Source: Tindallia sp. MSAO_Bac2 (GTDB lineage Bacteria > Bacillota > Clostridia > Peptostreptococcales > Tindalliaceae). From it: a DNA stretch of 64,000 nt. The notes beneath the pieces are model-generated. The model was not told the DNA's origin. It was given only the letters and a program-made list of their open reading frames with translations, and made no database searches. Both the position numbers and the translations under genes were made by a program. The stretch's first letter is position 1, and each line of letters begins with the position of its first letter. Below are positions 16,048 to 60,910 of the stretch, one piece after another. The stretch spans positions 30,355-94,354 of the forward strand of contig QYZZ01000033.1 in assembly GCA_003838145.1 (NCBI GenBank), given 5' to 3'.

Positions 16048-16103
16048 ATTGATCAGTAAACCCTTCTCATTAAGAAGAGCCAACATCGCCTTTCGGCACA
16101 GGC

Positions 16104-16178
16104 CTCACTCGTAGTAGAGCCATTTACGGTGACTCTGTAGAAACTGCCGAACCATATTATCGGCATTATAAGGTTGAG
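16104..16178 (-). promoter_or_regulatory. Purine riboswitch aptamer (guanine/hypoxanthine class)
   Basis: The RNA reads TATAATGCCGATAATATGG, then a P2 closing strand, GTTTCTAC, then P3 AGAG..CTCT around CACCGTAAATG, then ACTACGAG. These match the purine-aptamer P2/L2, J2/3 and P3/L3 consensus. The C in 'ACTA' is the specificity position (C74), pointing to guanine or hypoxanthine rather than adenine. P1 is extended but has three internal mismatches. Confidence 0.93.
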
Positions 16179-16188
16179 TTCTTTCTTT

Positions 16189-16216
16189 ATCATAGCAAAA
16201 ACGAAACAAAAAGCAA
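16189..16216 (-). promoter_or_regulatory. Sigma-A promoter for pbuG (and perhaps the pur genes)
   Basis: TTGCTT (-35, 16211-16216) and TATGAT (-10, 16189-16194) are 16 bases apart, just upstream of the aptamer. Confidence 0.7.
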
Positions 16217-36313: not shown

Positions 36314-38248
36314 ATGATTGTCTTATCTGTCAGTAACCTTAGCAAAAGTTTTGGTACCGATATACTCTTGGAGCAAATTTCCTTTTCTGTCCGGCACAAA
36401 GAAAAAGTCGGATTAGTGGGCGCCAATGGTGCTGGAAAATCAACACTTTTTCAGATCATCGCCGGCCAGCTCCCCTTTGACAGCGGTTCCATTCAAATCC
36501 CAAACAATATTAAGCTGGGCCGTCAGGATCAGCTGCTTCATTTTGATCCTGAAGAAACAGTATACGATCATTTAATGTCTATTTTCACTCCCTTAATCAG
36601 AATGGAGGAAAAACTTCGGAAAATGGAGTCCCTTATGAGTGAGCTGGGATCCCAGACTGGCCAGGAAGAAGAACTCCAGAAACTGATGCAGGAATACAGC
36701 CTGCTGACAGAACAGTTTGAAAGCCAGAACGGCTATGGATTCCGAAGCGAAGTTCGCGGTGTTTTAAACGGGCTTGGATTTTACGGCGAAGATTTTCATC
36801 GACAGGCATCCGTATTGAGCGGTGGCCAAAAAACCCGTCTGGCTCTGGCCCGCCTTCTTCTTAGCAAACCGGATTTGATCCTTTTAGACGAACCCACCAA
36901 CCACTTGGACATCAGCTCAGTAGAATGGCTGGAAGGCTTTCTAAAGAGTTATCCCTCAACATTGTTAATCATTTCACACGATCGCTTCTTTCTGGACCAG
37001 GTGACAGACCGCACTTTGGAACTGGATCAAACACGGCTAATGGACTTTGCCGGCAGCTACAGCACGGCTTTGAAAAAAAAGGAGGCTCTGCTGGAGGCAC
37101 GGGAACGCAGCCGAGTCCGGCAGGAAAAGGAAATTCGTCAACAGGAAGATCTTGTCCGGCGCTTCAAACAGCACGGGACTGAAAAACTGGCCAAACGGGC
37201 AGCCAGCCGGGAAAAAAAACTGGCTAAAATGGATGCGGGAGAAAAAAGACGTAAAACGCCGGTCCTTTCATCTTTACAGTTTCAGATTCAAAACACCAGC
37301 GGCCGCCATGTGCTGACTGCAGAGAATCTAAGCAAGCAATGGCCTCATCAGCCGCCGCTTTTTCAAAATATCAGTTTTACCCTGGAACGGGGAGACAGGA
37401 TGGCCCTGGTGGGTCCCAATGGTATTGGTAAGACAACACTGTTTAAAATAGCCATGGGCCTATTGGATGCAGAACAAGGCTCCATCCAGATGGGACATCA
37501 GGTGGCACCGGCATATTATCATCAGGAGCTGACACAGCTTAATGAAAAGCTAACGGTTTTAGAGGAACTGCAGGAAAATTTTCCTCAAAAGAAAGATTCC
37601 TTCCTGCGTACCTGTCTGGGGTCCTTCCTCTTTTTCGGAGATGAGGTTTTCAAGTCCGTCAGTCTGCTCAGCGGGGGTGAAAAGGCCCGCCTGTCACTGC
37701 TGAAAATCATGCTGTCGCCACATAATCTGCTTCTGCTGGATGAACCCACTAACCACTTGGATATCCCCGCCAGAGAAAACCTGGAAGCCTCCCTGCAGGA
37801 GTATGACGGTACCATCTTCTTTATTTCACACGACCGTTATTTTATTAACCGAATTGCCAATAAAGTGTTGGAACTGTCTCCGGAGGGCACAACCACCTAT
37901 CTTGGTAATTACAGTGATTATATCGCCAAGAAAAAAATGTTGGAGCTGGAAAGTGAACCAGAGACAACAACCACTGTCACAAAAACCCAGTCAAAGCTGG
38001 ACCGCAAAAAAGAACGGGAACTGCGATTGCAGGAAAAGGCTCAGCGAAAAGCCATCGAAGAGCTGGAGCAGGAGCTGGAAAGAACGGAATTGCTGATTCA
38101 GGAGGCGGAAGAAAACATGTGCCTGCCGGAGGTTTTTCTGGATCCGGTCAAAAGTAAAGAACTGCATCAGAAAACCCAGGAATTAAAAAACAGGCTGGAC
38201 AGCCTGTTTGAAAAGTGGGAAGAACTGATGGAAAATGAAGAATCTTAA
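36314..38248 (+). CDS. ABC-F family ATPase (YdiF/Uup-like)
   Basis: The 644-residue product has two ABC domains in one chain and no membrane segments. Walker A motifs are 'GANGAGKSTLF' and 'GPNGIGKTTLF'. Signatures are 'LSGGQKTRLALARLLL' and 'LSGGEKARLSLLKIML'; Walker B motifs are 'LILLDEPTNHLDI' and 'LLLLDEPTNHLDI'. The charged linker between them and the C-terminal coiled coil are typical of ABC-F proteins, which act on ribosomes. It could be housekeeping or antibiotic protection; no known resistance subtype is recognised. GAAGGAG lies seven bases before the ATG. It diverges from rex. Confidence 0.93.
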   Translation: MIVLSVSNLSKSFGTDILLEQISFSVRHKEKVGLVGANGAGKSTLFQIIAGQLPFDSGSIQIPNNIKLGRQDQLLHFDPEETVYDHLMSIFTPLIRMEEKLRKMESLMSELGSQTGQEEELQKLMQEYSLLTEQFESQNGYGFRSEVRGVLNGLGFYGEDFHRQASVLSGGQKTRLALARLLLSKPDLILLDEPTNHLDISSVEWLEGFLKSYPSTLLIISHDRFFLDQVTDRTLELDQTRLMDFAGSYSTALKKKEALLEARERSRVRQEKEIRQQEDLVRRFKQHGTEKLAKRAASREKKLAKMDAGEKRRKTPVLSSLQFQIQNTSGRHVLTAENLSKQWPHQPPLFQNISFTLERGDRMALVGPNGIGKTTLFKIAMGLLDAEQGSIQMGHQVAPAYYHQELTQLNEKLTVLEELQENFPQKKDSFLRTCLGSFLFFGDEVFKSVSLLSGGEKARLSLLKIMLSPHNLLLLDEPTNHLDIPARENLEASLQEYDGTIFFISHDRYFINRIANKVLELSPEGTTTYLGNYSDYIAKKKMLELESEPETTTTVTKTQSKLDRKKERELRLQEKAQRKAIEELEQELERTELLIQEAEENMCLPEVFLDPVKSKELHQKTQELKNRLDSLFEKWEELMENEES

Positions 38249-39306
38249 GGCCGCTGACCTATGGGAACACTGGCCGCTGCATTTAGATTCCAGCCGGAGC
38301 GGTAACCCAGGCAGTAATCGTAGTATCCTGCACAGGCAATCATGGCTGCATTGTCTGTGCACAAATACATTTCCGGAACAAAGAAAGAAATCTCTTCTTT
38401 CCGGCAGGCTTCTTCCAACCGTTTTCTCAGCAGTGAATTAGCTGCCACCCCACCGGATAGAACCACCTGTGAAAGCTGATGATCCCGGGCGCAGGACACG
38501 GTTTTTTCCACCAGCACTTCCACTACTGCCTGCTGAAAGCTGGCAGCAACATCCGGTACAGAGATGTTTTCTCCTTTCATCCGGCTGCTGTTCAGGTAGT
38601 TCAGCACTGCAGATTTTAAACCACTGAAGCTGAAATCATAATGGTCCACTTCCATAAAAGCCCGCGGGAAACTGACGGCTTCCGGATTTCCCATCCGTGC
38701 CTGTTCGTCAATCAAGGGGCCTCCCGGATATCCCAGTCCCAGTGCCCGGGCAATTTTATCAAAGGCCTCTCCCGCCGCATCATCCCGGGTTTTTCCAAGA
38801 ATCTCATATTTACCATAATCCGCCATCTTCACCAGATGGGTATGTCCGCCGGAGACGATTAAAGCCAGCAGTGGCGGCTCCAGCTCCGGATACTGAATAA
38901 AGTTAGCCTGTAAATGGCCTTCAATATGATGCACTCCGTTCAGTGGTACGTCCATGGCATAGGCCATGGCTTTTCCATAGGCAACACCCACCAGCAAAGC
39001 ACCCACCAGGCCCGGTCCATAGGTAACAGCAATCTGATTAACATCTTCCAGGTCTTTGCCTGCCTGCTGCAATGCTTCTTCCACTACCTGATGAATACAC
39101 TCCAAATGCTGCCTCGATGCCACTTCCGGTACAACACCTCCAAATTTTCGGTGCTCCGGTATTTGCGAGGCAATAATGCTGGATAAAACCTTTCGGCCAT
39201 CTTCCATCAGGCTTACTGCCGTTTCATCACAGCTGGTTTCAATCCCCATGGTAATCCATCCCCCGGGAGGATATGTCAATGATTTTTCTTCAGTTAGACT
39301 CTGCAT
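38245..39306 (-). CDS. tsaD: tRNA N6-threonylcarbamoyladenosine (t6A) transferase subunit
   Basis: TsaD transfers threonylcarbamoyl to A37 of ANN-decoding tRNAs with TsaB and TsaE. The 353-residue product shows 'GIETSCDETAVSLMEDGRKVLSSIIASQIPEHRKFGGVVPEVASRQHLE', the metal ligands 'NGVHHIEGHLQAN', 'LLALIVSGGHTHLV' and 'VVLSGGVAANSLLR'. GGAGGAGG lies five bases before the ATG, so the slightly long N-terminus is accepted. It overlaps the upstream gene by 17 bp and the end of the ABC-F gene by 4 bp (convergent). Confidence 0.96.
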   Translation of the reverse strand: MQSLTEEKSLTYPPGGWITMGIETSCDETAVSLMEDGRKVLSSIIASQIPEHRKFGGVVPEVASRQHLECIHQVVEEALQQAGKDLEDVNQIAVTYGPGLVGALLVGVAYGKAMAYAMDVPLNGVHHIEGHLQANFIQYPELEPPLLALIVSGGHTHLVKMADYGKYEILGKTRDDAAGEAFDKIARALGLGYPGGPLIDEQARMGNPEAVSFPRAFMEVDHYDFSFSGLKSAVLNYLNSSRMKGENISVPDVAASFQQAVVEVLVEKTVSCARDHQLSQVVLSGGVAANSLLRKRLEEACRKEEISFFVPEMYLCTDNAAMIACAGYYDYCLGYRSGWNLNAAASVPIGQRP

Positions 39307-43826: not shown

Positions 43827-43845
43827 GCTTACTACGTAAAGCAAG

Positions 43846-43958
43846 AACCTTCTCTCATCCAGACTGTACTGTCGGTTCCGGATTTGCACCGGATCCATCG
43901 GCTAAAACCGATTCGCGGACTGTCACCGCCGGTCGGGAATTTCACCCTGCCCTGAAGA
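43846..43958 (-). promoter_or_regulatory. FMN riboswitch (RFN element)
   Basis: The RNA reads AGGGCAGGGTGAAATTCCC, then GACCGGCGGTGACAGTCCGC, then GATCCGGTGCAAATCCGGA ACCGACAGTACAGTCTGGATG, a full match to the RFN core, closed by CTTC/GAAG. Confidence 0.98.
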
Positions 43959-43968
43959 TTACATTTTT

Positions 43969-59042: not shown

Positions 59043-59651
59043 TTATCTTTTAAGTATTTTTCCATGATGGTCAATTCGCAGCATCCGCGCCCGCTGGTAA
59101 TGACCGGTTCCCAAAAACAAAGCCTGAATCCAGAAAAATAATCCCAGAGAAATCAACAGATCTCCCGGCGAAAAAACCTGAGAAACAGGATAAAAAGACG
59201 GAGGGGTGAAGCGTTTTGCGAAGAAGGTCATCACACCCGACGCATCTTCCATCAGCAGATAATGCGGCAGGCGTCCGGCTTCGATCAGCGACAGTCGGTT
59301 TAAAAACCCGGCTTCCTGTAAAGCTTCCGCCGAAACAAGGATACTGCCGCCGTTCAAAAAAATAACCGCAAAATTCATGATGCTGCCGGCCAGTATCAGC
59401 CAGACAACTTTATGTCCCAGGTTAAAGAAAAGGGATATAAATAGCAATCCGTAGCTGATGGCATACAATAGCATACGCTGGTTAATAAACCAGGTGCTGC
59501 CAGCCAGCATCATAAACGAAAGCACTGCCTGCAGCAAAAAAGCAACAACCAGCAAAGCCGGCATCCGGATCTGAGCCAGCCTCATATTTTTCATCGTGCC
59601 TCCTCTAAAGAAAGCAACAACCGTTCCCAGCAGTAATGCTTCAATGAACAC
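59043..59651 (-). CDS. DUF5317 family membrane protein
   Basis: The 202-residue product has about five membrane helices and family-like features: 'FIEALLLGTVVAFFRGGTMKNMRLAQIRMPALLVVAFLLQAVLSFM', 'AGSIMNFAVIFLNGGSILVSAEALQEAG', 'LIEAGRLPHYLLMEDASGVMTFFAKRFTPPSFYPVSQVFSPGDLLISLGLFFWIQ'. Function is unknown. It starts at GTG behind AAGGATG. An extended -10 (TGATATAAT) lies about 90 bases upstream and may drive DUF5317-secA. Confidence 0.82.
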   Translation of the reverse strand: MFIEALLLGTVVAFFRGGTMKNMRLAQIRMPALLVVAFLLQAVLSFMMLAGSTWFINQRMLLYAISYGLLFISLFFNLGHKVVWLILAGSIMNFAVIFLNGGSILVSAEALQEAGFLNRLSLIEAGRLPHYLLMEDASGVMTFFAKRFTPPSFYPVSQVFSPGDLLISLGLFFWIQALFLGTGHYQRARMLRIDHHGKILKR

Positions 59652-59814: not shown

Positions 59815-60354
59815 TTATTCAAATTCCGGTTCAATTAATCCGTAATTACCGTCTTTTCGCTTATATACCACGTTAACTTCATTGGTTTCATCATTGGCAT
59901 ATACATAAAAGTTGTGGCCCACCAACTCCATTTGAAGCACTGCTTCTTCGTGACTCATGGGTTTAACGGCAAAACGTTTGGTTTTTACGATTTGAGCTTC
60001 TTCCTCTTCTTCAACTTTTTCATAGGTGGGAATATTTTCAAACCGGATGGTTTCATAGTTGTTGATTCGGTTCTTTTCCAGCCTGGTCTTGTGCTTTCTC
60101 AGCTGACTGTCCAGCTTGTCCACTACCCGGTCAATACTTGTGTACATATCCTTGGTAGCTTCCTCAGCCCGCAGCACTGAACCACTCAGGGGAATGGTCA
60201 CCTCCATGATCTGTCTTTCCTTCTCTACTGAGAGTGTAACCTGTGCTTCAGCCTCCTTGTTGAAATACTTTTCCAGTTTGTCCAGTTTGGATTCAATGGT
60301 GTCGCGCAGAGAATCTGTTATGTTGACATTTCTGCCTGTCACGATCACTTTCAT
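59815..60354 (-). CDS. hpf: Long-form ribosome hibernation promoting factor
   Basis: The 179-residue product has an N-terminal RaiA/HPF fold ('MKVIVTGRNVNITDSLRDTIESKLDKLEKYFNKEAEAQVTLSVEKERQIMEVTIPLSGSVLRAEEATKDMYTSIDRVVDKLDSQLRKHKTRL') and the C-terminal dimerisation domain ('VVKTKRF-like AVKPMSHEEAVLQMELVGHNFYVYANDETNEVNVVYKRKDGNYGLIEPEF'). Long HPF pairs 70S ribosomes into inactive 100S dimers. It lies downstream of a structured RNA and a DnaA-box-like cluster. Confidence 0.97.
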   Translation of the reverse strand: MKVIVTGRNVNITDSLRDTIESKLDKLEKYFNKEAEAQVTLSVEKERQIMEVTIPLSGSVLRAEEATKDMYTSIDRVVDKLDSQLRKHKTRLEKNRINNYETIRFENIPTYEKVEEEEEAQIVKTKRFAVKPMSHEEAVLQMELVGHNFYVYANDETNEVNVVYKRKDGNYGLIEPEFE

Positions 60355-60524
60355 ATCTCCAACCCCTTTCCCTCTTGTTTTCTTTCTGATGTCAATGTCC
60401 TTGATGCCACTTCACTGTAGTAGCTGTGAAGGTTGTATGTTTTAATATACCCTAATCTCATCAGCTAAACCAGTCAATTATTGATCGTTTTTCCCCATCA
60501 GGTGCTAATCTTTCGTCACTAACC

Positions 60525-60657
60525 TGTGGATAACTCTGTGAATTGTGGATAAAAAAAGGTATTTTCTGTGGATAATGTGGGTAACTCTGTTGATAACTTG
60601 GAATGAGCGGCTTTTTTTATGTGGATGAAAGAGCACCAATAAAAAAAGTTATTCACA
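60525..60657. promoter_or_regulatory. Cluster of DnaA-box-like sites
   Basis: TGTGGATAA, the reverse complement of the DnaA box TTATCCACA, occurs exactly at 60525, 60544 and 60567. One-mismatch forms are at 60576 (TGTGGGTAA), 60588 (TGTTGATAA), 60620 (TGTGGATGA) and, in the opposite direction, 60649 (TTATTCACA). Seven sites in 133 AT-rich bases is far above chance. Confidence 0.75.
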
Positions 60658-60659
60658 AA

Positions 60660-60690
60660 ATAAAAAGCCTGATGGTTTCCATCAGACTTT
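60660..60690 (-). terminator. Intrinsic terminator of the raiA-like RNA
   Basis: GTCTGATGG pairs with CCATCAGGC across AAA, followed by TTTTTATTTT on the minus strand. Confidence 0.92.
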
Positions 60691-60910
60691 TGGCCTAAAC
60701 AAGAATAGAAGCTGACCTGGTCTTTGCCCCCACACTCGCCTGCCGGGAGGTTCGCTCCGGGGTTGCCGTCACTACTAGTCCTCTCGGGCATTCTTGCCCG
60801 GCAGGGCTTACTCCTAAGCCGCACCATGCTCCACAGTACTTTTGACTGTGTTACGTGGGTCCCTTTGCCTGCGACTGGCATGGACTTTCAACCACAGACC
60901 TTCTATTCGG
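60660..60910 (-). ncRNA. Structured RNA upstream of hpf, probable raiA-motif RNA
   Basis: About 250 nt lie between an extended -10 promoter and a terminator. The ends pair (GAATAGAAG near the 5' end with CTTCTATTC near the 3' end), enclosing many GC-rich helices: TGCC..GGCA, CAGT..ACTG, CGGGC..GCCCG, CTGCCGGG..CCCGGCAG, GGAG..CTCC. No reading frame is convincing. Size, complexity and position before a raiA/hpf gene in Clostridia fit the published raiA motif; I could not run a covariance search. RNase P, 6S and tmRNA signatures are not seen. Confidence 0.7.

Follow-up and report, generated by a model that had tools for sequence, protein, structure and literature searches.

To our knowledge, the only well-studied extra-origin DnaA-box clusters (DBCs) in Bacillota are those of Bacillus subtilis. 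Deletion of six of these clusters leads to early initiation (PMC13220808; PMC5295017), and the six are described as restraining initiation jointly, which has been read as DnaA sequestration (PMC13220808; PMC5295017; PMC11019786). The cluster between gcp (tsaD) and ydiF is bound by DnaA with a Kd of 0.15 µM and a 16-fold preference for ATP at low DnaA. DnaA also binds upstream of ywlC, a gene that it appears to repress, and the genes adjoining some of the clusters are under DnaA regulation (PMC4447404). In Escherichia coli, datA works with IHF to promote DnaA-ATP hydrolysis and DARS reactivates DnaA; both are described as missing in B. subtilis, an organism that has no IHF and is not known to interconvert DnaA nucleotide states (PMC13220808).

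The original prediction placed seven DnaA-box-like 9-mers at 60525-60657 of the window, a 64-kb stretch of the Tindallia sp. MSAO_Bac2 genome, and their coordinates, strands and mismatch classes (three exact, three with one mismatch, one opposite) were confirmed. Three of the boxes form a core module on the minus strand (60567..60596) with the arrangement TTATCAACA-GAG-TTACCCACA-TTATCCACA and box starts at +0, +12 and +21. By sequence match, box 1 (TTATCAACA, 60588..60596) and box 2 (TTACCCACA, 60576..60584) each contain one mismatch; box 3 (TTATCCACA, 60567..60575) is exact and abuts box 2. Two further exact copies of TTATCCACA are found on the same strand at 60544..60552 (+44 from the module start) and 60525..60533, and both are retained within the window's family. 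Approximately 32 bp ahead of the module is a DnaA-like box with one mismatch (TCATCCACA, 60620..60628, minus strand), and relatives also have a box at about -31. The remaining DnaA-like box, TTATTCACA, is on the plus strand at 60649..60657 and recurs within the genus as TTATGCACA or TTTTCCACA.

No 133-bp stretch of the 64-kb window holds more boxes than this one (seven, allowing up to one mismatch). Dinucleotide shuffles of the window (n=200) reached at most three boxes per 133 bp and shuffles of the local 800 bp (n=2000) at most two. A chance origin of the cluster is thus excluded. Across the genome, 47 exact boxes were counted against 23 matches to a reversed control pattern. When clusters were ranked genome-wide by exact boxes only, the only close pairs outside oriC and the hpf cluster were part of a dispersed repeat located where contigs end; the comparison of box density with oriC that had been proposed leaves the window's site as the sole exact-box cluster outside the origin, the dispersed repeat aside. 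The repeat carries copies of TTATTCACA and TTATCCACA at the ends of contigs C15, C36 and C58 (loci L006, L016 and L022), with similar sites on C64, C113, C121 and C126, and it explains several of the exact boxes in the genome.

Like the DBCs of B. subtilis, the window's site is a clustering of boxes above chance outside oriC and is intergenic, with the raiA RNA and its terminator on one side and the start of hpf on the other. The order along the minus strand is raiA RNA, terminator, boxes, sigma-B-like motif, hpf, a DUF5317 gene, and secA with prfB. Both neighbors named in the original prediction proved to be real. The upstream one matches the raiA RNA family (RF03072, 60703..60908, minus strand) with 186 bits, and Hpf, the ribosome hibernation promoting factor (59815..60354, minus strand), contains two Pfam domains, PF02482 and PF16321. 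Since an intrinsic terminator with a 13-bp stem and a T-run follows the raiA RNA (60663..60691, minus strand), the cluster is separated from it. Between the boxes and hpf, a regular-expression match to a sigma-B-type promoter-like motif, GTTT-N14-GGGTAT (60447..60470, minus strand), suggests a stress-type expression of hpf. A putative motif of this type, GTTT-N13/14-GGGTAW, is shared upstream of hpf by several relatives. The DUF5317 gene between hpf and secA (59043-59651, minus strand) is likewise present in many relatives.

The module was searched for across the order as a 30-bp pattern with all boxes in the same direction, TTATCAACA-N3-TTAYNCACA-TTATCCACA. It was present in 99 of 297 genomes, mostly as a single copy, and the reversed-pattern control had no match in the same 297 genomes. 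From Hpf-position matching and reading of the loci, a position upstream of hpf was verified in 92 of the 99 carriers, Clostridioides difficile included; the remaining seven were unlinked, at a contig end, or outside the check. Of the 92 verified, 91 are close to hpf and one (G038) is farther off, at about 4 kb, beside the raiA RNA. The distance from module to hpf start ranges from ~150 to 810 bp among the close loci for which it was read. In C. difficile (L200) it is 215 bp, and within the C. difficile family it is near-constant, mostly ~204-245 bp. With a single exception, the loci of the order that were read have the module upstream of hpf and oriented as the gene is. Genomes of one family are kin, hence these counts are not of independent events.

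An unbiased test of conservation was provided by 30 loci that were chosen by Hpf alone, where the sites had not been selected by the pattern. In 21 of the 30, a module with two or fewer mismatches was found within ~1.1 kb upstream. Neither 30 stretches made up of hpf and its downstream sequence nor 300 Markov resamples generated from the upstream sequences produced a site with fewer than seven module mismatches. The question of whether the cluster is kept before hpf in related Clostridia can be answered in the affirmative for the 92 of 99 carriers and for these 21 loci. Among loci chosen by the raiA RNA alone, most families of the order had the module on the downstream side of the RNA. Across an alignment of 50 hpf sites, conservation averages 1.7 bits in the 30 module columns and ~0.2 in the flanks; since these sites were chosen by the pattern, the column value is inflated, and the information lies solely in the fall at the module's edges.

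Conservation of the module is not universal. With up to two mismatches allowed, it is missing from approximately two thirds of the 297 genomes searched, among them every genome sampled from families f2 and f12, nearly all of f10, and several other families. The module is thus not essential. In one family of the order, second module copies (L258-L263) adjoin genes for an HD-domain protein and an efflux adaptor.

A scan of one genome per species, whose class proportions are not a census, identified at least 117 module loci. Of the 80 non-hpf loci among the matches listed, 43 carry it 24-810 bp past the 3' end of tsaD/gcp, in identical orientation in all 43. In this placement, it cannot serve tsaD as a promoter element. 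Six remaining non-hpf loci among the matches listed have comFC upstream and correspond to the comFC-hpf interval of other genomes, and in L228, L239 and L244 the module is found between prmC and tsaC/ywlC. It may be observed that tsaC/ywlC and tsaD are two t6A-synthesis genes, both adjoining module sites.

In the class to which a Desulfotomaculia genome belongs, the module occurs in 49 of 60 genomes, in 35 of them in exactly two copies. All 27 loci read from this class are at comFC-hpf (17) or at tsaD (10), and where both copies of a Desulfotomaculia-type genome were read, there is usually one at each place. Within Bacilli, the module was found in 39 of 151 genomes. The 29 loci read are at tsaD (10), hpf (2, inverted), fliS or fliD (7), and dnaA (2), with the rest elsewhere; the seven beside fliS or fliD probably represent the fliS-hpf interval. 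In Paenibacillus and other Bacilli (L151, L232, L402-L404 and L318), a module is found beside an isopropylmalate/homocitrate-synthase-like gene.

The module was also considered as an element belonging to the raiA RNA. This candidate was rejected since the module persists where the RNA is absent or displaced. Three genomes of family f5 (G010, G021 and G032) have no raiA match, yet have the module upstream of hpf, and in C. difficile the module is at hpf with no raiA RNA alongside. In G004, the RNA is 13 kb off and the module remains with hpf. The link between module and raiA RNA is one of shared position only. The block of raiA RNA, module, hpf and secA seems to be the ancestral arrangement of the order, with other sequence inserted to either side of the module.

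From these comparisons, the hpf site is likely a DBC whose role is to titrate DnaA, on the model of gcp-ydiF and ywlC in B. subtilis. The titration option of the original prediction gains support from a cluster that is real, kept in relatives, not randomly repeated, and similar to those of B. subtilis. The gcp-ydiF cluster likewise consists of extra-oriC boxes in an intergenic gap, and many Bacillota have relatives of the window's module at the 3' end of tsaD; the two are matched by place, not by B. subtilis sequence. The window's copy differs from gcp-ydiF in being upstream of hpf. Its own tsaD (38245..39306, minus strand), 21 kb from the cluster, has no boxes, and no gap divides it from the adjoining convergent ABC-F gene (36314-38248). 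The ywlC cluster of B. subtilis is in the same place as the prmC-tsaC/ywlC module of L228, L239 and L244 among the matches listed. The recurrence of the module at gcp and ywlC genes in relatives is the strongest sign that it is a DnaA-binding element. Since the three-box core recurs at hpf or one other gene across much of Bacillota, the cluster probably represents an old brake on replication that works by sequestering DnaA, and not a chance cluster. A search of the literature on DnaA boxes with hpf, yvyD or hibernation factors, or with gcp, ydiF or ywlC, found no description of the site or of the three-box module.

As a mechanism, the three-box module is predicted to load several DnaA molecules cooperatively, and we infer both the binding of DnaA and a preference for ATP-DnaA. 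In 25 near-complete relatives, the module is oriC-proximal, at 0.03-0.21 of the chromosome from dnaA with a median of 0.06; the window's genome itself is in 129 contigs. A locus that is usually origin-proximal would be duplicated soon after initiation; its two copies would then capture free DnaA, probably in the ATP-bound form, and so hold back re-initiation. Origin proximity suits such an early doubling in the cell cycle, or it may simply reflect the location of the hpf-secA block. Any effect on hpf would be secondary.

A different reading makes DnaA a transcriptional regulator of hpf, as it is of sda or ywlC in B. subtilis, which would let ribosome hibernation follow the state of replication. 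Direct control of hpf is possible, whereas for ywlC of B. subtilis there is apparent repression by DnaA. A position kept upstream of one gene can also signal its regulation, and here the read loci of the order, one excepted, have the module upstream in the orientation of hpf, at a near-constant distance in the C. difficile family; a sigma-B-like promoter motif separates the two. The regulation by DnaA of genes beside some B. subtilis clusters (PMC4447404) is also in its favor. The distance to hpf, however, varies from ~150 to 810 bp across loci, as does the gap to the promoter motif, the module is reversed in Bacilli, and the same module is found at the 3' end of tsaD. Furthermore, G038 and G014 keep the module beside the raiA RNA with hpf 5-10 kb off, which weakens the case for a strict hpf element. 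Taken together, a role centered on hpf control is unlikely. A further reading extends beyond sequestration, with the three-box geometry promoting DnaA ATP hydrolysis or ADP release in the manner of datA or DARS. The strict spacing (+0, +12, +21), the one to two copies per genome, and the deep conservation agree with it, and a fixed geometry exceeds what titration needs. The window's site resembles datA as a chromosomal, here predicted, DnaA-binding locus outside oriC and DARS1/DARS2 as a short non-coding locus with DnaA boxes. The core box arrangement of DARS1/DARS2 differs from that of the module. Against a datA/DARS-like function, both systems are described as absent from the IHF-less B. subtilis (PMC13220808), and it is held to be quite improbable. 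We regard as very doubtful that the module binds a protein other than DnaA, or is an old repeat resembling DnaA boxes by accident. Boxes 1 and 2 are non-canonical (TTATYAACA and TTAYNCACA) and the genome does have a dispersed repeat with DnaA-box-like sites; however, the variation across species is near the usual DnaA-box spectrum, the places of the module coincide with the DnaA-bound gcp and ywlC loci of B. subtilis, and, unlike a mobile repeat, the module is usually present once or twice per genome at a conserved position.

That the hpf cluster might be a second, weak replication origin is suggested by its many boxes within AT-rich DNA and by the two Bacilli loci, L399 and L400, where a module-like site is just upstream of dnaA. 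The bipartite oriC of C. difficile and its relatives has boxes of the same sequence (TTWTNCACA type; PMC7561715), but it flanks dnaA and has an unwinding region, whereas the window's site is at hpf. The dnaA gene of the Tindallia genome is on another contig (C59:29038-29520) between box clusters of its own at C59:28234-28465 and C59:30051-30255, and these two groups are a canonical bipartite oriC. The claim that neither dnaA nor dnaN is near the hpf cluster was thus borne out, dnaA-dnaN being on that other contig. Nor was there a GC-skew switch at the site or elsewhere in the 64-kb window, in a test that is one-sided as only ~3 kb extends beyond the site on one side. Of the loci queried by tblastn, none of the order or among the matches listed in the species scan had dnaA or dnaN beside the module. 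Just two of 29 Bacilli loci adjoin dnaA, and the module as a part of oriC in general was rejected. The second-origin option that had been raised did not hold up against these data, and an origin at hpf is scarcely credible.

Titration is the favored reading. An old shared control in which DnaA is held away from oriC across much of Bacillota is suggested by the retention of the module at hpf from Alkaliphilus to C. difficile and by its presence at both hpf and tsaD in genomes of the Desulfotomaculia type. A more elaborate proposal treats the module as an ancient element in its own right, which would regulate DnaA in Bacillota through a defined geometry that loads or switches the protein, and which would be kept at its two preferred places, hpf and tsaD, such that the control of initiation is coupled to the state of translation through hpf and the t6A genes; this is conceivable but rather doubtful. 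The module offers a short, well-defined DNA target in organisms where initiation control is little known, and makes it testable whether box geometry, and not box number alone, matters. Elsewhere in the window, two other RNAs were identified, both on the minus strand: an FMN riboswitch at 43843-43963 and a purine riboswitch at 16092-16193.
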